Part shown: positions 38,991 to 64,000 of the stretch, one piece after another | How positions within the stretch are numbered: the stretch's first letter is position 1 | Layout: each line of letters opens with the position of its first letter | Assembly (NCBI GenBank): GCA_003265895.1 | Contig: QFBS01000001.1 | Coordinates: 1-64,000 of the forward strand | Source: Candidatus Marinamargulisbacteria bacterium SCGC AG-410-N11 | GTDB taxonomy: Bacteria > Margulisbacteria > Marinamargulisbacteria > GCA-2716485 > AG-410-N11 | Direction: 5' to 3' | Length of the DNA: 64,000 bases | The notes under the pieces: model-generated | What the model saw: only the letters and a program-made list of their open reading frames with translations | Database searches by the model: none | What the model was told of the DNA's origin: nothing | Made by a program: the position numbers and the translations under genes

Positions 38991-39443
38991 TTAATTATCA
39001 GAAGATGTAGTGATACTTTTCCAATGAAATTTAGAATGATGATGATAGGTATGAATCAATAAAATCACAAAGGAAAGAAATAATAAAAAAATCGAATTCA
39101 AAAATATAAACCCTCCAAAACATATAAATAATAAAATAGAATATCTTAGAAAACAATGATACCTATAAGTAAAAAATAATCCTGTAAAATAAAATAAATA
39201 TGTTGTAATAATAGTCGCATAAACTATCCCATAAATATTAAAATATTTGTAAAAAATAAAATTCAAAGCCACACTAACCGGAATCAATACAACAAAACAA
39301 ATATTAAGCTTTTTTACTTGATGTAGACCAGATGCAATAGAAAAACTAATATGGTAATGAAACAGTGGAAACACCATAATAATTAAATATTTTGCAAGGG
39401 GAACACTTAACGTATACAGAGGTATAAGAGTATGAATAATCAA
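38991..39443 (-). pseudogene. wzx: C-terminal fragment of Wzx flippase, out of frame
   Basis: This 150-residue open frame, opened only by a TTG, is a run of about four to five hydrophobic helices. It continues the flippase encoded just upstream: with one G fewer in the G9 tract (39480-39488) the upstream frame runs directly into it (LSQWGGLLAGISIYW...). It is not likely to be translated on its own. See the 39463-40383 entry. Confidence 0.8.
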
Positions 39444-39462
39444 ATCAATAGACCAATAAATA

Positions 39463-40383
39463 CTAATACCGGCTAAAAGCCCCCCCCCATTGGCTCAAAA
39501 GTAGCAATGTATTAATCAAGGCATGGTTTGACTGCTTACGATCAAAATTCATAAATAGTTTAGGAGTATAGGACCCAATAAATGCCATTCCTAATGTAAT
39601 CACAACTGTAACAAACTGCAACGCCGTCGAATAATAAGCTAGATATTCAGAACTAAAATAATGTTGAATAAAAAATCGATCTAAACTAAATATAAACTTA
39701 AACAGATAGTTGCAAAACAATAAAACAAATCCAACAGAAAGTATACGTTTAATAATAAGAGAATCTACAGAAAATTTAGTTAAAGAAAAATTAACATATA
39801 GCTTTTTTCGTAACAAATAAAACAAACCTATACAAATAATTAATATAATCAAGCTACCTAATGAATATCCAATGTAATATCCTTTTATTGATGAAATCAA
39901 ACAAAAAATAGCTAATAGACTAAAGAATAACAAAGAACGAATCACATTAAAGACACCACTATATTGAAGAATATTTTGACCTTTAAAAATAAACGTTATT
40001 AATTGAACAAAAGACGACATAATAAAAAAAGGGATAAAACAATAGAAAGCAAACGATTGAAACATTGTATCTGAAAAAAAATAACCCATCATGAAAAAAA
40101 AAATAGAAATAATAAAGGTAAATAGCACCGTTAGCCAAAAAATCGTAATAAAAAAACTTTCATTTTGTTTAGTATCTTGACCCACTGTATAAGTAGGCCC
40201 TAGCCGTTCTAAAGAAGTTCTTAAAAAAGCTAAAGGAATTTCAACAATAATATACACTGCGGACACAAAGACAAACACCCCTATAACCTCTGGAGGAACA
40301 ATTCGTTTTAAATAAATTCCAATAGAAAAGGAAAAGAAAAAGTTCCAAAAATGAGACCCCGCATATATAAGATTACTTCTCAT
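39463..40383 (-). CDS. wzx: Wzx-like polysaccharide flippase, truncated at a G9 tract
   Basis: Translocates undecaprenyl-linked repeat units across the inner membrane. The open frame has about nine hydrophobic helices of the MATE/Wzx type (RSNLIYAGSHFWNFFFSF at the start). The ATG at 40383 is preferred to an upstream in-frame ATG at 40464 because it overlaps the upstream gene by only 11 bp and begins the first helix. The frame ends after LSQWGGAFSRY, immediately past a run of nine G on the coding strand. Removing one G (or adding two) joins it to the frame at 38991-39443 and gives about 463 residues, the normal Wzx length. The gene as written is OFF; a phase-variable tract or a homopolymer sequencing error explain this equally well. 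Confidence 0.75.
   Translation of the reverse strand: MRSNLIYAGSHFWNFFFSFSIGIYLKRIVPPEVIGVFVFVSAVYIIVEIPLAFLRTSLERLGPTYTVGQDTKQNESFFITIFWLTVLFTFIISIFFFMMGYFFSDTMFQSFAFYCFIPFFIMSSFVQLITFIFKGQNILQYSGVFNVIRSLLFFSLLAIFCLISSIKGYYIGYSLGSLIILIICIGLFYLLRKKLYVNFSLTKFSVDSLIIKRILSVGFVLLFCNYLFKFIFSLDRFFIQHYFSSEYLAYYSTALQFVTVVITLGMAFIGSYTPKLFMNFDRKQSNHALINTLLLLSQWGGAFSRY
39480..39488 (-). repeat. G9 homopolymer in wzx (frame-breaking)
   Basis: Nine C on the plus strand (G9 on the coding strand). Eight G keep the wzx frame open, nine close it after 4 codons. G/C homopolymers of eight or more are very rare in DNA as AT-rich as this. Confidence 0.9.
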
Positions 40384-41893
40384 GAATATATGTTTTCCAA
40401 TGTTGAAAATAAGAATTCCCATCATTGATAAGACAATAAGAAATGTAATCAAGATTTTGATCATTTAGTATAGTTTTGTTAGACAAATGTAACCTCACCT
40501 TACATCGCTCGTGTTCTGACAAAAATGAAATTGGAACAATTTTGTAATTAAGTAAATAATTAACAAATTTATACAAATTATCTTTATTTTCTTTCTGAAA
40601 CTCTTTAATAACCTGTGTATTTTCAATCAAATCAAAATACTCTTGCTTATCTTTAAATTCATAACAGATTTTCTTATTATGATACGGAGATAATCCCCCT
40701 GAAAATAGAGGGATATCATTATATAATAATTCCGTCCCAATAGTCCCATTATAAACAAATGCACCATTTAAATAAGGAAACAACTCATAACTTGAAAAAG
40801 GGTTCGATGAATCAACAAATAAGATGTTGTCCTGTTTTTTAAATAGTTTATTAAAAATATCCATCGCCCCAACATTGGATTTCATCCATCTATATTCAGC
40901 AGGATGAACACGAATAATAAGTAACTTGTTCGTATTATTAACAAAATAATCAATAGTTTGAACAAACCAGTCATAATTAGACTGAAACAATATATCACAA
41001 CCAATATAACTATTATCCCAAAAAACATTAGGAAAAATTGCAAACACATTATGACGATAAGCATCTATTTTATTATTCAATTGAATAATAAATTCCTCGT
41101 TTCTATTATTTTTACTTACCCCTTTTAATATGTTTTTTAAATCCATAGATTTACCTTCAAATCTAGACTTTAAATATGTCCTACAAAAAGAGTAGCTTTC
41201 ATCTAAATCTATTTGATGATTAAATTGATTAAAAAAATTATTATCATAAATCCCTGATGCAACAATATTATTTTTACAAAAAACAACCCCATTAGTCTTA
41301 AAGCCACCAAAAGAATAAGTTATCGACATTTTTTTTTGATTCAAAAAAAACTGATAAAAAGGTCCCCAAGTAGAATATATACCATGCGAAGTACATATCC
41401 GAGCAGGATTTTCTTTTTGAAATAAAGATTTTGCTATAAAAATAGAAACCAATGAATTTTGAACAAACATCTTTAAAACATCTGAGTAGTCTCTATGTTC
41501 TAGAGCAAACTTATCTATGGATCTATAATACCTATTAATAGAAGAGTTTATATAAGGATAAAGATCAATAGAATCCATTTTATATAAATCAGATTCTATC
41601 ATATTTTTTGAGATATTCAGGATCCTCTTAAAATCTTCTACATCAACAAACTCACTATAAAATCTTATATATGATAACCTTCTTAAAAAAAAAGTCGATA
41701 CTCGCTTCCTTATTGCTTCATCAAAACAAGTAATGATACCATCAACTTGAACGGTATCATGATGCAACAATACATTATCATCAACAAGCACAATCGCATG
41801 TTTACCCTGTTTCCTTAAATTAAGACACATCATAGACTCTGTAAACATGATATCCAAAGAATGCCCACGTACTAAATTAAATACACAAAACAC
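40373..41893 (-). CDS. Capsule-type glycosyltransferase (possible nonulosonic acid transferase)
   Basis: A 506-residue protein with the pattern of capsule polysaccharide transferases: NLVRGHSLDIMFTESMMCLN near the start, HGIYSTWGPFYQF near 167, IIRVHPAEYRW near 325, and YNGTIGTELLYNDIPLFSGG near 380. GTG at 41893 opens this frame but has no ribosome site, and the frame stays open upstream to 42025, directly after the ptmA stop, reading LRHVKRLASLIKFIFK and onward, which looks like a real N-terminus. A T10 tract at 42018-42009 lies there; with T11 or T8 an ATG at 42045 or 42042 inside ptmA would be in frame. As sequenced, the start is doubtful. Last gene but one of the nonulosonic acid operon, so it may be that transferase. 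Confidence 0.7.
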   Translation of the reverse strand: MFCVFNLVRGHSLDIMFTESMMCLNLRKQGKHAIVLVDDNVLLHHDTVQVDGIITCFDEAIRKRVSTFFLRRLSYIRFYSEFVDVEDFKRILNISKNMIESDLYKMDSIDLYPYINSSINRYYRSIDKFALEHRDYSDVLKMFVQNSLVSIFIAKSLFQKENPARICTSHGIYSTWGPFYQFFLNQKKMSITYSFGGFKTNGVVFCKNNIVASGIYDNNFFNQFNHQIDLDESYSFCRTYLKSRFEGKSMDLKNILKGVSKNNRNEEFIIQLNNKIDAYRHNVFAIFPNVFWDNSYIGCDILFQSNYDWFVQTIDYFVNNTNKLLIIRVHPAEYRWMKSNVGAMDIFNKLFKKQDNILFVDSSNPFSSYELFPYLNGAFVYNGTIGTELLYNDIPLFSGGLSPYHNKKICYEFKDKQEYFDLIENTQVIKEFQKENKDNLYKFVNYLLNYKIVPISFLSEHERCKVRLHLSNKTILNDQNLDYISYCLINDGNSYFQHWKTYIHEK

Positions 41894-54992: not shown

Positions 54993-56342
54993 TTATATTT
55001 TTATTATATGATCTTTAGATATGCCTTTAGTCATATTACGAGTATCAATAATTAACTTAGAATGATTAATTATTAAATCCTTATCAAGATAATCATGATT
55101 CGTAACAATCACACAACAGTCATAACGACTTAAACTTGATTGATCTAAAGACACACTTTTAAATGATTGTTTAGCTAACTCTAAAGAATCATTAAACTTA
55201 TCATGATAATCAATATTAGCACCTAAGCTTAATAACTCCTGAATAATATCCAATGCAGGAGACTCTCTCATATCATCGATATTAGGTTTATAAGCAATCC
55301 CAATAATTAAAATCTTAGAACCGTTAACACTTTTTTCATGTTGATTTAGTCCATGAATAACTTTATTAACAACATGATGAGGCATCGAACTATTAATATC
55401 ACTGGCTAAATTAATAAATCTAGCATCATAATTTAATGTTTTTAATTTCCAAGATAAATAAAATGGATCAATTGGAATACAATGTCCGCCTAATCCTGGT
55501 CCTGGATAAAAAGGCATAAAGCCAAAGGGTTTGGTCGCTGCCGCTTCAATAACTTCCCACACATCGACATCTAATTTATCACACATTAAAGCAAGTTCAT
55601 TCGCAAGACCAATATTGATAGATCGAAACGTATTTTCTAATAACTTCACCATTTCAGCTGCTTTTGTAGAAGAAACAGGGATAACTTGATCAATAGCTTG
55701 AGAATATAATAGTTCAGAAACTTGAGTACATGCTTCAGTAACGCCGCCAATAACTTTAGGTGTATTTTTTATTTTATAGGTTTCATTACCTGGATCGACT
55801 CGTTCAGGAGAGAATGCAAGAAATATATCCGTTCCAATAGTAAACTCAGATAGCTCAGGAACAATAATTTCTTCTGTAGTACCTGGGTAGGTTGTACTTT
55901 CTAATACAATAAGTTGTCCTTTTTTGGCATATTGTTTAATGGTTTGAATAGAATTAACAACATAAGAAAGGTCGGGATCTTTTGTTTTACTGAGTGGCGT
56001 TGGTACACAAATAATAAGGACATCCATCGTTCTTATATTAGAAAAATCAGTCGTAGCACGAAACAGTTTTTGGTCTACACAGTCGGCCACTTCTTGATCG
56101 GATATATCAGGAATATACGATTTTTGTTGATTAATTAAACTAGCTTTTTGGGCATTTTTTTCAAAGCCCGTAACATTAAATCCATTTTTTGAAAATTCGA
56201 TACCTAATGGTAAACCGACATAACCTAAACCAATAATCCCAATATGTAATGTTTTTGTTTCAATTTTTTCTTTAAACAATGTTATATTCATTTGATTTTC
56301 ATCTTGCCCTTTAAAATTAATTGTTGTTGATTCTGTATTCAT
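54993..56342 (-). CDS. wbpA: UDP-N-acetylglucosamine 6-dehydrogenase (WbpA/TviB-like)
   Basis: Oxidises UDP-GlcNAc to UDP-GlcNAcA, entry to the uronic acid sugars made by WbpB-D and WbpE. The 449 residues include an N-terminal 32-residue extension before the NAD motif GIIGLGYVGLPLGIEF, then CVPTPLSKTKDPD near 118, VLESTTYPGTTEE, FSPERVDPGN, AEMVKLLENTFRSINIGLANE (in part), the catalytic cysteine in GPGLGGHCIPIDP and IGIAYKPNIDDMRESP. The motif set identifies the WbpA/TviB subgroup rather than Ugd. Confidence 0.9.
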   Translation of the reverse strand: MNTESTTINFKGQDENQMNITLFKEKIETKTLHIGIIGLGYVGLPLGIEFSKNGFNVTGFEKNAQKASLINQQKSYIPDISDQEVADCVDQKLFRATTDFSNIRTMDVLIICVPTPLSKTKDPDLSYVVNSIQTIKQYAKKGQLIVLESTTYPGTTEEIIVPELSEFTIGTDIFLAFSPERVDPGNETYKIKNTPKVIGGVTEACTQVSELLYSQAIDQVIPVSSTKAAEMVKLLENTFRSINIGLANELALMCDKLDVDVWEVIEAAATKPFGFMPFYPGPGLGGHCIPIDPFYLSWKLKTLNYDARFINLASDINSSMPHHVVNKVIHGLNQHEKSVNGSKILIIGIAYKPNIDDMRESPALDIIQELLSLGANIDYHDKFNDSLELAKQSFKSVSLDQSSLSRYDCCVIVTNHDYLDKDLIINHSKLIIDTRNMTKGISKDHIIKI

Positions 56343-56437
56343 AATAACATCCTTATTGTAAGAGTTGGAGAAGTTTTAACCCCTTTTAAGTTTTATAATA
56401 ATATCAAACCATTTAAGATATAACAAAATTAAAAGTA

Positions 56438-57757
56438 TTAATATTGATTACCAATAACATAAGATTTAAAACCTAAACAATCTAAATTCTCTTTTGAATA
56501 AAGACCTCTAAAGTCAAAAAAGTAAGCCTGTTTCATTAAAGTTTTTACTTTTTTGAGGTCTAAATTCTTAAATAAATTCCATTCTGTTAAAATAACCACA
56601 GCATCACTGTTTTGAACCGCGTCATAAGAGTTATCTGCATATTCAATAGTATCTCCCAAAATCAATGTCGTATTTGGCATACCCTTAGGGTCAAAAACTT
56701 TTATTTTGCATTGACGATCTAATAGCTGTTGAATTAAAAACAAAGACGACGATTCACGAACGTCATCTGTATTAGCTTTAAACGTTAGGCCTAAAATACT
56801 AATGGTTAAGCCTTGATAACCGTTTGGAAAAAAAGCATCTAAGTATTTGATTAATTTTTCTTTTTGTTTTTTATTAACAGATAAAACAGAATCTAACGTA
56901 TCAAATTGATAATGATGTTTAAGTGACTGATTGCGTAATGATAATGTATCTTTAGGAAAACAAGATCCCCCAAACCCTGGCCCTGGCATTAAAAAGTGTG
57001 GACCAATACGTTTATCCGATCCTAATATTTTAGATACATCTTTTATATTACCCCCTACATGCTCGCATAAGTTGGATATTTCATTGATAAAAGATACTTT
57101 GATAGATAGAAAAGTATTGGCCGCATATTTAGCTAATTCGGCCGTTTCAAATGATGTTAAAAAAATAGGCGGAATATCTTTCATCGACATATACAGTTGT
57201 TTAAGACTGTCTTTTGAATCATCATTATTTCCACCGATAACAATACGGTCAGCATTAAAAAAGTCATGTAAAGCAGATCCTTCACGTAAAAACTCAGGAT
57301 TGGATATCACATTAAGAACATCTTTAAGACCATAATCCTTAATAAGGTCTACCAGTTGTTGATTAAAACCAATAGGTACAGTGCTTTTAATAACAATGAT
57401 TGATTTTTGACTACATTGAGACTGTTTATACCAATTAAGAATATCGGTTACAACAGCTATGGCATCATTAACATAAGTATCCCCATTTTCAAGTGTCGGT
57501 GTCCCAACAGCAACAAAAATAAATTCAGAATGTAAACAATCCGAAAGTTCTGAAAAAAAAGAAATACGATTAAGTTGTGTTAAATCTTGTAGTTTTTCTT
57601 GAAGGCCTGGCTCAAAAAAAGGAGAATACCCTTGTTTTAATTGGTCTATTTTAGATTGGTTTTTATCAACAAATTTAACTTGGTTACCTAAATCGGCTAA
57701 ACATACTCCCGTTACTAAGCCAACATATCCGGTCCCAATAACTGTAATCGATTTCAT
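56438..57757 (-). CDS. ugd: UDP-glucose 6-dehydrogenase
   Basis: Oxidises UDP-glucose to UDP-glucuronate with two NAD. The 439 residues carry VIGTGYVGLVTGVCLADLG at 5-23, VAVGTPTLENGD, STVPIGF, NPEFLREGSA, KYAANTFLSIKVSFINE, the catalytic cysteine in GFGGSCFPKD and LGLTFKANTDDVRESSS. It follows the OPX gene by 32 bp and precedes wbpA by 95 bp. The presence of both UDP-Glc and UDP-GlcNAc dehydrogenases indicates an acidic polysaccharide with at least two uronic acid sources. Confidence 0.93.
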   Translation of the reverse strand: MKSITVIGTGYVGLVTGVCLADLGNQVKFVDKNQSKIDQLKQGYSPFFEPGLQEKLQDLTQLNRISFFSELSDCLHSEFIFVAVGTPTLENGDTYVNDAIAVVTDILNWYKQSQCSQKSIIVIKSTVPIGFNQQLVDLIKDYGLKDVLNVISNPEFLREGSALHDFFNADRIVIGGNNDDSKDSLKQLYMSMKDIPPIFLTSFETAELAKYAANTFLSIKVSFINEISNLCEHVGGNIKDVSKILGSDKRIGPHFLMPGPGFGGSCFPKDTLSLRNQSLKHHYQFDTLDSVLSVNKKQKEKLIKYLDAFFPNGYQGLTISILGLTFKANTDDVRESSSLFLIQQLLDRQCKIKVFDPKGMPNTTLILGDTIEYADNSYDAVQNSDAVVILTEWNLFKNLDLKKVKTLMKQAYFFDFRGLYSKENLDCLGFKSYVIGNQY

Positions 57758-57789
57758 AATTTAAAACAAAACTGAAACGTTTTCATTAT

Positions 57790-60213
57790 CTATCTAATAA
57801 GATTAAACACATTCATAATAGAAACAACTTCAAAGATAACTTTGATAACATCTTTGGTTTCTTTCCAAACATTAAGTTTAACTTTAACTTCTTCTGGAAT
57901 ATATATTGTATCCCCTTTTTGAATATTAACGTTATTCTTAGCAATTTGGCCATTCGATTTAAACACATAAAACGTATCTTTGATACTAAATTCTGACAAA
58001 CCACCTGCTTTTTTAATATAGTAGTTAAGCCCTTTACCGTTAACATAGCGAAGGGATGTGGGGTAGCTAACGCCCCCGACGATTTGAATAGAGTCTGGAA
58101 CCGTTGGTACTGTAAGTGTATCGCCATCCTCTAAATTAAATTCAATAGTATCATTAAGAATCTCATTTAAATCAATAACCACTCGGCCATCACTAGATTC
58201 TATTTTTGTTTGAAGGAATGAAATCGCTTGTTGATAGGCTTGTTTGTTACCTTCATTTAAATTTTCTAAACGTCTCTGATCATAAATTAAACGTTTTTGC
58301 TCTTCATCTACAATTCGTTTGTTTCCTTGTTCTTCGGCTACTTTGACACTTTGTCTTGTAAATACAGCACCAGTAATAAAGGCATTATCTGATAAACCAC
58401 CCGCTCGCTTAATAACCGAATTTAATGTTTCATTTTCTCGAAAAAAGTAGGTGCCTGGCTGTTTGAATGCGCCAGATAATTGAATCTGCCGTTTCTCAAC
58501 TAAGAATTTGTTTTCTTGGACCATAATAAGATCATTCGGATGTAAATATAAATTTTCGTCAGAGTCAGGGTTTGCTATGATTTCAGATAAAGAAACCGTA
58601 ATAATCGACTCTCCTAAACTAGATTGTCGGTAAACTTCACAGGCCGATAATTCGGCCGTAGCATCTAGCTGAGATAATTCAATGACATCTGAGACTTTCA
58701 TATTCGCTAATAATTTATATTTTCCTGGCTTGATAACACTTCCTTTAACAGTAACAAAGCCATATTGATTCTCTTCGACATTAACAATATCCCATTTTTT
58801 TAATGTAAACGATTTCGCACGATCTTGACTAACTAATAACAATTCTCGTTGGGTATGGGTAAGATAACGATAGACTTGGATATCCCTGTTTAATGAAATT
58901 TCTTTTAAATCTTGTGCTTTTGAAAGAAGCTGATCTAATGTCATTCCTTTCTTAAATTGATAGGAGCCTGGCCGATTGACAGATCCTTTAACAGTAACCA
59001 CATTGTCTTTTTCATTTAATATAGGAAGAACATGAATTCGATCGCCATCTTTAATCAAAAACCGTTTCGCTATTTTTTTGAATTCAGCTTGTTTACTAGA
59101 TACATTAATAACTTCTACTTTTTTACCATTAGAAAGTCGCTCAACTTGGATTAGGGAAGGATAACTAGACGCGTGAAAGCCTCCTGAAAGCTGAATAGCT
59201 GATAATAATGATACTTTATGTTTAAGTTCATAAATGGCAGGCCGCTTAACAAGACCCTTAATCTGACAAACAGGGCCAATAGCAGGAACAAAAATAGTGT
59301 CATAAGCACGAAGCTGGATATCTTGCGATTGGTCACCTTTTAATAAATAATCGTATAAATCGACAGTTTTAAACGTTTTTCCTTTACGCTTAAGTTGAAT
59401 ATTTCGTAAAGAACCAGTTTTAGAAGGCCCGCCAGCTTCATGGATAGCCGTAAATAATGTTGATAACGATGATACATTATAAGATCCTGGTTGGTTAACA
59501 TCCCCTAAAATAAATACTTTAATCGATCGTAGTTGGCTAATGGAAACACTAGTTTCTATGTTAACGAACTTTTTATCTAAATGTTTTCGGATAATATTAT
59601 TAACTTGGCCAAACCGAACACCATTGAGCGGGATATGACCCAGTTGAGGGATAAAGATTCGTCCTCGTTTGTCTACAGTAACCATAAACGTCTCGGTAAG
59701 TTTACCCCAAATATTAATGACTAAAGAGTCGCCAGGTCCAATTATATAGTCGTCTGCGACAGGGATATTAAAATCAGTAGATTCATCTTGACTGGAACTA
59801 AAAAAGTCATAGCCAAACTGTTTAGCCTTTTGGATAAGAGGTGAAACAAACGAATCAGATTTTTTTGTTGTAAACGGTTCATCATAATAAATCTGAAAAA
59901 GATTTGTTTTGGTATCTAAGGATTCGGTGGTTGAAAAAATGGTCTCAATTTGAGATGTATCCGAAGGATCCTTTGTATCTATATCTTTTTGATTAATTTC
60001 TTTTTTTTTGTTTGTTTCTTTTTTTGTGGTTGTTTTAGATAAAAGTTGTTGCGCGTCTCCTGGCGAAATAGAATTTAATATATTTGGGTTACTTTGAATA
60101 ATCGCTTGTGCCTTTGATTGCTGTTGAGGGGTTAAGTTAGCTGGAATATTAGCGAAACAAGTAGAATAAATAACAAATAAATGAACTATAAATAATAAAA
60201 AAATACGATACAT
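57790..60213 (-). CDS. Polysaccharide export outer membrane protein with multiple SLBB domains (OPX)
   Basis: Outer membrane/periplasmic export channel for the polysaccharide. The 807-residue protein has a signal peptide (residues 1-22, ending CFA), a low-complexity linker rich in Lys/Asp/Thr (about 68-95), the PES domain beginning DYIIGPGDSLVINIWG near 152, and then six SLBB-like repeats recognisable by a G-(x)-PGxY pattern (for example GDVNQPGSYNV, GLVKRPAIYEL, GSVNRPGSYQF, GSVIKPGKYKL, GAFKQPGTYFF, GGVSYPTSLRY). This is longer than Wza (about 380) and closer to KpsD-like large OPX proteins. GAAAGGAATGG is the ribosome site. It is first in an operon with ugd. No Wzc-type kinase is nearby. 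Confidence 0.88.
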   Translation of the reverse strand: MYRIFLLFIVHLFVIYSTCFANIPANLTPQQQSKAQAIIQSNPNILNSISPGDAQQLLSKTTTKKETNKKKEINQKDIDTKDPSDTSQIETIFSTTESLDTKTNLFQIYYDEPFTTKKSDSFVSPLIQKAKQFGYDFFSSSQDESTDFNIPVADDYIIGPGDSLVINIWGKLTETFMVTVDKRGRIFIPQLGHIPLNGVRFGQVNNIIRKHLDKKFVNIETSVSISQLRSIKVFILGDVNQPGSYNVSSLSTLFTAIHEAGGPSKTGSLRNIQLKRKGKTFKTVDLYDYLLKGDQSQDIQLRAYDTIFVPAIGPVCQIKGLVKRPAIYELKHKVSLLSAIQLSGGFHASSYPSLIQVERLSNGKKVEVINVSSKQAEFKKIAKRFLIKDGDRIHVLPILNEKDNVVTVKGSVNRPGSYQFKKGMTLDQLLSKAQDLKEISLNRDIQVYRYLTHTQRELLLVSQDRAKSFTLKKWDIVNVEENQYGFVTVKGSVIKPGKYKLLANMKVSDVIELSQLDATAELSACEVYRQSSLGESIITVSLSEIIANPDSDENLYLHPNDLIMVQENKFLVEKRQIQLSGAFKQPGTYFFRENETLNSVIKRAGGLSDNAFITGAVFTRQSVKVAEEQGNKRIVDEEQKRLIYDQRRLENLNEGNKQAYQQAISFLQTKIESSDGRVVIDLNEILNDTIEFNLEDGDTLTVPTVPDSIQIVGGVSYPTSLRYVNGKGLNYYIKKAGGLSEFSIKDTFYVFKSNGQIAKNNVNIQKGDTIYIPEEVKVKLNVWKETKDVIKVIFEVVSIMNVFNLIR

Positions 60214-60538
60214 GGACCCATTCCTTTCAAAATAAAAAATAAAACTAACTTAAATTTTAGACTGAATTACTAAATAATACTAGTTTCTAAGTACAAAAAT
60301 TTATCATTTAACACCAAAATTATTATCAAAATTAAAATATTTTCAAATAATTTATTCCCATTTTTAAAATTCGATGAATCTTAGTAGTCTTTAATAAATA
60401 TGAGAGAGTTATAAGAGGGTGCTCTAATTAATGACATATTAGGTGAAACATATCAGAAAAAAATTCTATTAGATTTTTGTTAAATAAAGAAAAAATAATA
60501 CCAAGAAAGCATAAAAGAAAATAAAGAAAAAAAATTTC
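60214..60538 (-). other. Intergenic region upstream of OPX
   Basis: AT-rich spacer of about 325 bp that must contain the OPX promoter on the minus strand. I found no convincing minus-35/minus-10 pair and no reading frame. Confidence 0.5.
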
Positions 60539-60568
60539 TTTACAATCAATTATTCAATTTCATATAAT
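60539..60568 (+). promoter_or_regulatory. Promoter in front of the C10 hairpin
   Basis: TTTACA at 60539-60544 and TATAAT at 60563-60568 are 18 bases apart on the plus strand. The expected start at about 60575 is immediately before the hairpin at 60577. Confidence 0.5.
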
Positions 60569-60576
60569 AACTTATG

Positions 60577-60616
60577 AAAAGCTCTCGGAGACCCCCCCCC
60601 CTATTCGAGGGCTTTT
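60577..60616 (+). ncRNA. Hairpin with C10 loop: terminator or small RNA
   Basis: AAAAGCTCTCG (60577-60587) pairs with CGAGGGCTTTT (60606-60616): 11 base pairs with one wobble. The 18-base loop contains ten consecutive C (60592-60601). On the minus strand it would end the secretin operon as an intrinsic terminator (stem then TTTT). On the plus strand a TTTACA/TATAAT promoter begins just upstream, so a roughly 45-base RNA made almost entirely of this hairpin would result. Such a C-rich loop could pair with G-runs in mRNA. Terminator function is likely; the small RNA is a proposal. Confidence 0.5.
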
Positions 60617-60653
60617 CCTTGAAATATAGTTGAAAAATTTAAGAATGTATTTT

Positions 60654-61637
60654 TTACATAATATTACCCTTTGCAATTGTTGGTTTCAAATATAGATAGA
60701 TATAGCTCATTAAAGTCTTTCGTAAACGTCGTTTAAAATATTGTCCAATAAAGGGAACTTTAGAGAATGTTTCAATCATCCAGTGATGATCACGCTGTTT
60801 ATGTTGTTGAAAGCTACCAATTAAAATAGATTCGTTGTTAGCTACATTAAACGATGTATTTAATGATCGGTTAGCAACCACTGGATATTGAGATGATCCA
60901 ATATCTTTCCACATATTTACATTATCAATCGATGACTTTAATTGGATAGCAATATAGTTTTGAGTACTAATAGTGGGTGTGATATCAATCGAAATTCCAG
61001 TTTGAATTTGTTTGAACGAGGTTGATGTAACGGTTTGGTTAGTATGGGATGTAATATAAGGGAATTGATTGCCAATAGAAAGTGATGCCGGCTGATTGTG
61101 TTGAGCTAAAATCATCGGAGTAGCTACTATTTTAACGGTTGCCATTGTACATAGTGGACCTAATAATCTTTCAAATTCGTCTTGAGAAAAACTTGTAAAA
61201 GATTGTCTTAAAAGTTTCGAGCTTGTTTTGAATTGATCGATTACGGACGGTTGATTCCTTGAGTAATCAAAAGTGACTTCAATTATTTTGAACTCTAATT
61301 GAATCGTCTTGATAGGTTTATCTAACATGCTGACTGTTTTTAAAATATCACGCTTTAATTGAGACGGTGATTTAATACAAAGCTGATTATAATTTGCATG
61401 TTTTTTAACTAATATATTGGTATAAAGCGATGTTAAGATCGTTTGGATATGCTCAATGTCAGCATAAAGAATGGTTAAAAAAAACACGGATTCAGATTGT
61501 GATTTAGCATTGTTAACAGTAGAAATTTTATGATTAAAAAAATCAGCATCAAATGCATTACTATACTGCATAATAGTATTGGCATTGAGAGTAGAAAATA
61601 AGAAGGTAATTAATATTATAATAATTAGGTGATTCAT
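60654..61637 (-). CDS. Short secretin-domain protein (PilQ/GspD-like)
   Basis: A 327-residue protein with a signal peptide (MNHLIIIILITFLFSTLNA) and a C-terminal secretin domain: VPF-type motif KVPFIGQYFKRR near the end, ATPMILAQHNQPASLSIGNQFPYIT and TGISIDITPTIS segments of the secretin fold. Before this is one N-domain-like region (IQTILTSLYTNILVKK). At about 327 residues it is far shorter than PilQ (600-700) or GspD, so it lacks most N-domains. The start at 61637 gives an ATGA overlap with the upstream gene; the earlier in-frame ATG at 61673 is less likely. It ends a three-gene operon with PilO-like and PilN-like genes. Confidence 0.75.
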   Translation of the reverse strand: MNHLIIIILITFLFSTLNANTIMQYSNAFDADFFNHKISTVNNAKSQSESVFFLTILYADIEHIQTILTSLYTNILVKKHANYNQLCIKSPSQLKRDILKTVSMLDKPIKTIQLEFKIIEVTFDYSRNQPSVIDQFKTSSKLLRQSFTSFSQDEFERLLGPLCTMATVKIVATPMILAQHNQPASLSIGNQFPYITSHTNQTVTSTSFKQIQTGISIDITPTISTQNYIAIQLKSSIDNVNMWKDIGSSQYPVVANRSLNTSFNVANNESILIGSFQQHKQRDHHWMIETFSKVPFIGQYFKRRLRKTLMSYIYLYLKPTIAKGNIM

Positions 61638-62032
61638 AATAAATAAGGAGTTCTTTGAAATACTACATGACAATTTAAATTAGTTATATCCAGTTCCACA
61701 GATTTAATAGCTAATTCAGCGGAATGTAAGGCATCCATCAAAATGTCGAAAAAGACGGCAGTATCTTGATGTGGGATTGTAAACTGATAATGTAAAGGAG
61801 ATACGGTTTGGAACGTGAGATCTTTAACTTTAATTAAGAAAGTCTTATTAGAGGATATAGACTTTAATTTAGGAGATAGCCTCATTGTCTTATGGAAAGT
61901 ATCTGCAAGACGTTGTTGATGGGTATTTTGTTGGTTTAGGCAATAAAACATATAGCCCAAAAATAATAAGCAAAAACAAAAGAATAACGTGAATAATCGC
62001 TTGTTAAGTTTAGGTTTGCAAATTAAAGTCAT
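61634..62032 (-). CDS. Small single-helix protein, PilO-like
   Basis: A 132-residue protein with one transmembrane helix at about residues 13-31 (TLFFCFCLLFLGYMFYC) and a short periplasmic domain with a beta-alpha pattern. Size, topology and place between a PilN-like and a secretin gene suggest PilO (or GspM) function, the inner membrane platform next to the secretin. The primary sequence gives no firm match. It overlaps the PilN-like gene by 23 bp and the secretin by 4 bp. Confidence 0.5.
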   Translation of the reverse strand: MTLICKPKLNKRLFTLFFCFCLLFLGYMFYCLNQQNTHQQRLADTFHKTMRLSPKLKSISSNKTFLIKVKDLTFQTVSPLHYQFTIPHQDTAVFFDILMDALHSAELAIKSVELDITNLNCHVVFQRTPYLL

Positions 62033-62717
62033 AAAAAATGTATCCCCCTGTTGGTTTGACGGTGTTAACTGTTAATGTATAAGGGTTAAGTTCTAACCAT
62101 TCTAAAATACTTTGTTTAAATAAAGTCAAGTTTTCAACTAAGCAAAAACCTTGAAACATAATATTGGTTTTAGAAAGAGAAAGTGACTGAATAATAACAG
62201 GTTGTGTTTTTAAAAACTCGTAAAAAGATAATAACTCTGTATTAGCTGTTTTTGAAATATCAATCGTATTAGCAAGTTTTATATGAAATGTTTTTATAGT
62301 TTGTTCCACACGTTGATTTTGATTTACTTGACGTTGATTTGAGTAATAATACAAAAAATATCCAGATTGAAATGAAAAGACTAACAGGAATAGTATTGTG
62401 ATAGCATAGTGAATTGAAAATTGAGATAAATGATATTTAATTCTTTCTATTAAAGATTGAGTATATATATGACGTAAATGATATCCGTATTGTTTGAATA
62501 AATCTCGTAATGTTTGAGTAATGGATTGAAGCTCAACTTTAGAAAATTGATTCGCTAATGAAGAATCAATGGTAATGGAGTAGCTGTATTGCGATTGAAG
62601 CGAGTTAAAGAAAATAGCATGCGATGAAGTATCGTTTAAAAGTGTAAATAACGATAGATCCAGTAGTTGATGGGTGTTTATAGATGATATTGTAAATGTG
62701 ATATTTTTTGATCTCAT
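62010..62717 (-). CDS. Bitopic membrane protein, PilN-like
   Basis: A 235-residue protein with a cytoplasmic N-terminal region (about 1-100), one transmembrane helix at about 104-124 (HYAITILFLLVFSFQSGYFLY) and a periplasmic part with a coiled-coil stretch and a C-terminal alpha-beta domain. This is the topology of PilN, or of a PilM-like N-domain joined to PilN: the N-terminus is larger than in PilN, about 100 residues against 20. No PilM gene is seen next to it. The promoter geometry implies a leaderless message and no ribosome site is visible. Confidence 0.5.
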   Translation of the reverse strand: MRSKNITFTISSINTHQLLDLSLFTLLNDTSSHAIFFNSLQSQYSYSITIDSSLANQFSKVELQSITQTLRDLFKQYGYHLRHIYTQSLIERIKYHLSQFSIHYAITILFLLVFSFQSGYFLYYYSNQRQVNQNQRVEQTIKTFHIKLANTIDISKTANTELLSFYEFLKTQPVIIQSLSLSKTNIMFQGFCLVENLTLFKQSILEWLELNPYTLTVNTVKPTGGYIFYDFNLQT

Positions 62718-62726
62718 GTAAATAAT

Positions 62727-62755
62727 ATTTTATAAATTAAAAAGTATTACGTCAA
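62727..62755 (-). promoter_or_regulatory. Promoter of the pilN-pilO-secretin operon
   Basis: On the minus strand TTGACG (62755-62750) and TAAAAT (62732-62727) are 17 bases apart, with the expected start near 62720, three bases before the ATG at 62717. Confidence 0.55.
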
Positions 62756-62935
62756 TAAAAATAATTTAATGTAAATTCTTTCTTTTTATGAACTATTAAT
62801 AATTGATAGTCGTGATGCAGTTTTGATTTAAGGGATAGCGTTAATTGGAAGGTTTTCATAAATTAAATATATAATGATAGTATAATAAAGATTTGAACCT
62901 TATTATTTGATGAAAGAAACGAGACATATAAGATA

Positions 62936-64000
62936 ATGCAATGGGTAAAGCAATTTTTTAATTTTGATTTTTTAGAAATTTTAGATCGAAACGAAAAAAA
63001 AGTGTTTTGGTTAATCATAATACTAATGAGTGTTTTTTCATTGGTAGAGGCGTTCACTTATACACTAATAGTACCTTACATTAATGTTATTATAGATCCA
63101 GACCGTATTTATTCGATTGCTAAATTACAACCCATTTTAAAATGGCTAAATTTAACTGAGTCTAAGCAGTTAGTAATCCTTATTTCAATCATTTTTTTAG
63201 GTATGTATTCCATTAAGTCAGGATTACAATTAATAACTAATTATTTTATTGCTAAATTTCCCCAAACAATTTCGCAACATAGAATGGCGTTTATGTATTC
63301 TAAATACTTAAAGATGAACTACAGATCGTATTTAGAAAAAAATACAAAAGAGATGGTAAAGGTATTAACTCAAAACGTTTATCAAGTCGGAGTTTTAATA
63401 CAATCGTCGTTATTTTTTATATCATATCTCATTACATGTATAGGTTTAGTCTTGATTCTTATAAATAAGTCGTTAATAACCACCGTGATTATTATGATCT
63501 TTTTTGTTTTATCTGGTTCCGTTGTTCATTTATCTATTAAAAATCGTCAAAAAAAAGCCGGTGTTGATCTAGATAAATCTTATAATACAGTTTATAAAAT
63601 AACATCAGACTCGTTAACGTTAATTAAAGATATTCGATTATATAAAAAAACAGAGTATTTTATTGATAAGGTAGCAGCTGTTGTTAAAAATGTCTGTGGT
63701 GCCTATAAGGTTAACGCATTCTTATCGGGTTTGCCAGGAGTTTTACTAGAATATTTAGTAATCATATTTTTGGTTTTATTTAGTTTAATATTTATATTAA
63801 AAGGGATTGATATAAAGTCGTATGGAACCTTATTTATTTTTTATGCGGTAGTTGGGAGACGTTTATTAAGCTGTTTAGGGCAGGTGATATCGGCCAAGAA
63901 TACAATTAATTTTTGTAAAGCATCATATGAAACGTATAAGTCAGAGCTTCAATATATTGAATCAGAAAAGTTTGAAATAACAGAAAATATAGCAGAAAAA
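62936..64000 (+). CDS. ABC exporter, transmembrane part, cut by window edge
   Basis: The frame opens at ATG 62936 and runs 355 codons to the right edge. It encodes the membrane domain of a type I ABC exporter of the PglK/MsbA kind: helices near 22-45 (KKVFWLIIILMSVFSLVEAF), 80-100, 145-175 and 240-280, with coupling-helix-like segments RLYKKTEYFIDKV and RMAFMYSKYLKMNYRSYL (in the PglK family style). The ATP-binding domain would follow outside. Oligosaccharide-lipid flipping is possible, but lipid A or other substrates are equally likely. A TATAAT at about 62880 may be its promoter. Confidence 0.75.
   Translation, partial: MQWVKQFFNFDFLEILDRNEKKVFWLIIILMSVFSLVEAFTYTLIVPYINVIIDPDRIYSIAKLQPILKWLNLTESKQLVILISIIFLGMYSIKSGLQLITNYFIAKFPQTISQHRMAFMYSKYLKMNYRSYLEKNTKEMVKVLTQNVYQVGVLIQSSLFFISYLITCIGLVLILINKSLITTVIIMIFFVLSGSVVHLSIKNRQKKAGVDLDKSYNTVYKITSDSLTLIKDIRLYKKTEYFIDKVAAVVKNVCGAYKVNAFLSGLPGVLLEYLVIIFLVLFSLIFILKGIDIKSYGTLFIFYAVVGRRLLSCLGQVISAKNTINFCKASYETYKSELQYIESEKFEITENIAEK

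Follow-up and report, generated by a model that had tools for sequence, protein, structure and literature searches.

Introduction

Small RNAs that act through C-rich loops are a known functional kind. The Firmicutes RNAs RoxS, IsrR and LhrC have C-rich unpaired segments, aimed in some of them at Shine-Dalgarno regions, and are not known to carry a long homopolymer in the loop of one terminator. The 6C RNA occurs in other actinobacteria as well as in mycobacteria and has a family of its own in Rfam, and Helicobacter pylori, the source of RepG, is not known to have Hfq. RepG has its own gene, carries a C/U-rich terminator loop in the second of its stem-loops and recognizes G-run targets in the leader and the intergenic region of the tlpB-hp0102 mRNA, with homologues reported in gastric Helicobacter (PMC8295292). 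The mycobacterial 6C/B11 RNA pairs via a nine-C loop in a Rho-independent terminator with G tracks beside ribosome-binding sites, acts without Hfq or ProQ and includes surface glycolipids among the functions it controls; B11 folds into three stem-loops, of which two are C-rich, and its hosts are high in GC (PMC12395582, PMC10470900). GsrN of Caulobacter has a C-rich loop at its 5' end that pairs with G-rich mRNA leaders, is general-stress-dependent and activates its target katG, and its homologues are found beside a constant set of regulator genes (PMC5869019).

Our searches of the literature on Margulisbacteria and small RNAs yielded no small RNA described for this phylum. Margulisbacteria are relatives of the cyanobacteria. 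A 2019 description characterizes the phylum as one without isolated representatives (PMC6784892). Here, we analysed a promoter and hairpin found in a 64,000 nt stretch of DNA, referred to throughout as the window, from an uncultured member of this phylum. The assembly (G000) is 1.507 Mb (rounded to 1.51 Mb) in 52 contigs and 55.7 % complete, with a GC content of 30 %, and the closest genomes compared belong to the same order.

A predicted promoter-hairpin unit and its closest counterparts

The unit and the genes around it are as follows.

60539..60568, + strand: predicted sigma-70-type promoter, -35 TTTACA at 60539-60544, 18-nt spacer, -10 TATAAT at 60563-60568; 11 of 12 positions match and the shuffle p is 0.002, with equivalents 5' of the hairpin in most relatives.
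60575..60621, + strand: predicted small RNA, some 45 nt long; its probable start, about 7 nt past the -10, and its probable end, just beyond the hairpin, are placed from the promoter and hairpin.
60576..60617, + strand: terminator-like hairpin with a 14-bp stem (60576-60589 with 60604-60617), recognized from sequence, fold and covariation.
60590..60603, + strand: exposed loop GA-C10-UA (C10 at 60592-60601), the predicted pairing region.
60654..61673, - strand: secretin gene (Pfam PF00263, E 2.3e-27, and relatives), convergent with the small RNA; a genomic partner and not part of the RNA.
57790..60213, - strand: Wza-type polysaccharide export gene on the other flank (Poly_export and SLBB domain matches).
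61634..62032, - strand: small gene of the secretin operon, a weak candidate target; GGGGG ending 11 nt before the ATG, predicted duplex -13.0 kcal/mol, not kept in relatives.

The first-pass annotation had proposed a promoter followed on the + strand by a hairpin with a C10 loop, and this was confirmed. The gap between TATAAT and the hairpin is 7 nt, and the + strand hairpin folds at -19.0 kcal/mol (z -3.45, equalled by none of 200 shuffles); the - strand fold of the same stretch is ordinary (z -0.60). The promoter ranks first among 37 promoter-like sites in 56000-64000, where 46.7 were expected from shuffles. As such sites are not enriched, the promoter by itself is no evidence, and it is its conservation that counts. 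The hairpin is missing from the list of our terminator scanner because its loop exceeds the limit of 8 that the scanner accepts. The terminator of the window copy is weak, as only four T's follow the GC stem and all of them are paired, and in this copy the T content after the hairpin does not differ by strand (6 versus 7). The window RNA is shorter than those of its relatives and has a single hairpin, with no separate 5' stem-loop predicted. C10 is the longest G/C run of the window, and the source genome has 38 G/C runs of at least 7 and 13 of at least 8.

Like RepG, the predicted RNA is short, has a predicted gene of its own and carries a C-run loop in a terminator hairpin. RepG has two stem-loops; a separate 5' stem-loop of differing sequence is predicted in 11 of 15 copies from the same class, and the window copy has one hairpin. 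The proposal that the RNA is RepG-like is partly supported, as a likeness of layout. Unlike RepG, the run is one of pure C (C6 to C11), the phylum is another, the gene is linked to a secretin locus and the targets are candidates; where RepG finds its G run in a 5' leader and exerts length-dependent control, G6 to G9 occur at ten start sites in G000, none of them found conserved. With GsrN the RNA shares a C-rich loop, G-rich mRNA partners (candidates here) and a recurrent genomic neighbourhood, though the C run of the window RNA lies in the terminator loop rather than at the 5' end, and repression is what we propose. It differs from 6C/B11 in having one hairpin (two in relatives, one with a C loop) and a 30 % GC host, and from RoxS, IsrR and LhrC in its phylum. 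Rfam scans of the window (gathering threshold), of 60480-60680 (E up to 5) and of loci L133, L134, L137 and L141 (E up to 1) returned no family above threshold and no match to 6C. With no Rfam match and one C loop instead of two, membership of 6C is unsupported. The RNA would represent a new family within the C-loop small RNAs, grouped with RepG and 6C/B11 by its proposed way of working and not by kinship. If real, it adds a further, apparently separate C-run seed in a terminator loop in Hfq-less bacteria, after RepG and 6C/B11, and such repeated C-run seeds suggest a recurring solution.

Distribution in the Margulisbacteria

A search for secretins across 56 genomes of the phylum supplied the first relative loci. 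The hairpin was visible beside the secretin in five genomes of the same order (G001, G002, G004, G005 and G006) and six others of the class (G009, G011, G012, G018, G021 and G024), and a covariance model, R1, was built from these 11 relatives and the window copy. Applied to G000, R1 had one strong match (60573-60621, + strand, E 2e-16), followed by the reverse strand of the same site (E 0.02) and two matches at E above 0.2. A single strong copy (E below 1e-12) was found by R1 in each of 15 of the 27 genomes of the class, whose assignment to it follows taxonomy and not a tree of our own; three of these (G010, G017 and G025) were added by this search and took no part in building the model. G008 has a divergent sixteenth copy with C6, on a contig without a secretin match. 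The R1 search gave no credible copy in the remaining 11 class genomes, including G007 and G016, which are listed as at least 90 % complete.

A search of 74 genomes of the phylum revealed a variant hairpin in all five genomes of family f23 (the fifth being G040). Its loop contains C9 to C11 and TGTACGAAC, its cores read GCYCYC and its promoters resemble TAGCCA-17-TATAAT. When the GTDB collection was scanned for the exact pattern, 12 matches came up, all on contigs equal in length to those of class genomes already found by the model and none elsewhere. Weak model matches that were inspected in f22, f25-f29 and the class genomes G007, G015, G022 and G026 were ordinary terminators lacking a C run. 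A phage origin was also considered and rejected, with no match in viral contigs and a single copy in G000.

Conserved structure and strand polarity

In the alignment, 91.7 % of stem cells are paired over 19 distinct sequences. Changes on both sides affect 10 of the 14 pairs and 24 cells, a level reached by none of 500 shuffles, and slid-partner controls gave at most 7 such cells. A run of at least six unpaired C's is present in all 20 aligned copies and all 19 that were folded have one C-run loop per RNA. The earlier suggestion that the run could vary in length was borne out: it ranges from C6 to C11 among species and is C10 or C11 within one genus. The recurrence of C6 to C11 runs in the same hairpin of separately assembled genomes also makes it unlikely that C10 is an assembly artefact, a doubt raised at the outset.

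The promoter signal is kept in relatives and is confined to the C strand, and the idea of an independent promoter-hairpin unit is supported. For the 15 class copies, the top promoter score in the 75 nt preceding the hairpin was 9.62 for the C strand and 7.71 for the G strand, and the combined shuffle p for these copies was 2.7e-8 versus 0.69, the former being optimistic as the rows are related and three copies share one genus; for four f23 copies the values were 0.001 versus 0.77. For single copies the promoter p is often not significant (0.36 in G017, 0.40 in G010). T residues after the hairpin are also more numerous on the C strand (7.8 of 12 versus 6.3 on the G strand, p 0.003, 19 copies). 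At the level of sequence, then, the locus has the promoter and terminator of its own that mark C-loop trans-acting small RNAs. It probably goes beyond a terminator and is best read as a gene for a small RNA whose terminator loop carries the C run.

Linkage to the secretin gene and alternative explanations

In all 15 class genomes the RNA gene is no more than 5.2 kb from a secretin match, and in 11 of them the distance is at most 150 bp, the more distant copies being those in G021 (1.1 kb), G018 (1.2 kb), G010 (1.6 kb) and G017 (5.2 kb). In f23 the distance is 3.5 kb (G043 and G040) or 6.7 kb (G046 and G034), and G049 is without a secretin match. Though twelve copies were first found by looking beside secretins and their linkage is thus ascertained, those found by the genome-wide model search alone (G010, G017, G025 and f23 except G049) are also linked. 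Hence, linkage is not merely a product of ascertainment. It persists over strongly diverged secretins (approximately 25 % identity), and a homologue of the Wza-type export gene is also near the RNA in seven relatives (G001, G002, G004, G005, G006, G011 and G012). From this linkage, the RNA may act in step with the pilus-type or secretion machinery, though no conserved target was found there.

In the window, both flanking genes are on the strand opposite to the small RNA. The RNA is adjacent to and convergent with the secretin in nine of the 15 class genomes (G000, G004, G005, G006, G009, G011, G012, G024 and G025) and shares its strand with the secretin in G001, G002 and G018, and this variation argues for a separate gene. 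It bears directly on the alternative that the hairpin yields no RNA of its own and simply ends transcription of the secretin operon, as an intrinsic terminator that may work in both directions and whose loop holds a slippery C/G run. The proximity to secretins and the short T tails on both strands of the stem are as expected of such a terminator, and G000 has further G runs placed shortly after the 3' ends of genes, some of them within hairpin loops. However, a terminator of the secretin should always follow the gene at one place and in one orientation, with a U-run on the gene strand, which is not the pattern found, given the three same-strand copies and the four that are 1-5 kb away (G010, G017, G018 and G021). 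Nor would termination require the conserved stem core and C run or a promoter signal on the C strand only, and the G strand of the window folds poorly. We consider this explanation unlikely.

The nine convergent, adjacent copies would also fit a cis-antisense RNA that pairs with the 3' end of the secretin mRNA, where G10 in a loop would be its perfect complement, and so tunes the secretin, or for which the mRNA serves as a sponge. This is also unlikely, as the RNA is not antisense in G001, G002 and G018 and the two genes are apart in G010, G017 and G021, and a perfect antisense would require neither a conserved C run nor a conserved stem sequence.

The stem core GCTCTCG is invariant over the 12 class copies of alignment A3, beyond structural demand, and could be taken to indicate that the locus is a protein-binding RNA or DNA element, such as a decoy for a C-binding protein, instead of a base-pairing RNA. 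The f23 cores, however, are altered with compensatory changes while the C run is retained, and we regard a protein-binding element as improbable. The wzx G9 and legC G8 tracts, named as targets by the first-pass annotation, are very improbable sites of control by the RNA: both genes are in the same surface-sugar region and the predicted duplexes with these perfectly complementary tracts are strong (-28.2 and -26.0 kcal/mol), but any G8 or G9 pairs equally well with C10 wherever it is placed, so that these energies prove nothing, and the tracts lie 976 and 669 nt within the coding sequences, far from start sites, which is where RepG and B11 act, and the tracts examined in five genomes of the same order include no orthologous one.

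Candidate targets and proposed mode of action

By analogy with known C-loop RNAs, the small RNA of the window should repress mRNAs that have G runs at their start sites. A search of G000 for G6 followed by ATG at 2-12 nt gave 32 rows, inspected in the window and 23 fetched stretches, 16 of which have an ORF of at least 60 aa; ten of the 16 resemble true starts. In these ten candidate target genes, G6 to G9 end 3-12 nt before the ATG; at a control spacing of 15-25 nt there were two genes, one being the same G9 gene. Predicted duplexes of the loop with the ten range from -16.9 to -28.9 kcal/mol, versus a median of -4.9 for 49 start sites of the window. None of the ten proteins reached the Pfam cut-off (four were cut by the end of the stretch), versus ten of 17 distinct genes sampled near other G/C runs in G000 (18 queries, one protein appearing twice; Fisher p 0.003).

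Ribosome-binding sites are G-rich in any case, and a G6 there need not mean regulation. Of 35 loci inspected in G005, only two show G6 ahead of a start-like ATG, and these are not orthologous to any of the ten G000 genes. As no target is common to the genomes, the ten are a prediction for G000 and not a conserved regulon. Conserved targets with long G runs were also sought among the 38 G000 tracts of at least 7 and tracts of at least 8 in G001, G002, G004, G005 and G006 and were rejected, as no gene family had a start-site tract in several genomes; in the sole close homologous pair of tract-bearing genes (G004 and G006), the tract is inside long ORFs. Each of the 69 genomes searched has G/C runs of at least 8, whether or not it carries the RNA, and no relation was apparent by eye. 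Among the 49 genes of the window, only the small secretin-operon gene at 61634..62032 has a G run of at least 5 near its start. Starts in the secretin operon have GGGGG or GGGGGG in the window, G018 and G025, and these are absent in other relatives, making them a weak lead as potential targets.

No Hfq was found in the 23 class genomes searched, and five of 14 control genomes were positive. We propose, with moderate confidence, that the locus is a small-RNA gene in single copy, that a sigma-70-type promoter of its own drives + strand transcription, and that the RNA would end with the hairpin whose loop is the C run. The C run would act as the seed, pairing with G runs at or beside the ribosome-binding sites of several mRNAs, and this pairing would block ribosome binding and lower expression without Hfq. 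The proposal draws on the promoter, hairpin, covariation, conservation, strand polarity, single copy and secretin linkage, all read from the sequences, and from these we infer transcription, pairing, the direction of regulation and the target list. A broader reading, which we hold only tentatively, is that a separate small-RNA family of Margulisbacteria, retained beside the pilus-type secretin locus in much of the class and in family f23, is an Hfq-free C-run regulator whose seed length changes by slippage and whose regulon is joined, species by species, by a rapidly changing set of lineage-specific genes that gain a G run at the ribosome-binding site. The secretin linkage and the G-run starts of orphan genes provide testable predictions on the phylum.

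Other observations in these genomes

The intergenic G runs of G000 are on the strand of the upstream gene in 15 of 18 cases, opposite in two and without a neighbour in one, with base composition uncontrolled. Many are 7-27 nt past the upstream stop codon and some are in hairpin loops (L061 and L066). The wzx-like gene of the window (38991-40464, - strand) encodes 333 aa with a Pfam Polysacc_synt match and stops a few codons past G9; a 150-aa ORF comes next on that strand. The two together are presumably about the length of a whole flippase. On this account, the gene looks to be interrupted at a tract that is either phase-variable or mis-assembled. In G012, a second C9 run lies just 3' of the small-RNA hairpin (contig C531, L140:9029-9037). 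A CRISPR direct-repeat match in G001 (RF01324, L137:7421-7456, - strand) is sub-threshold, at 27.7 bits versus a gathering threshold of 45. One G000 gene (contig C23, L075:164-1351) encodes a eukaryote-type U-box domain (PF04564, E 1.1e-9), which hints at a host-associated life.
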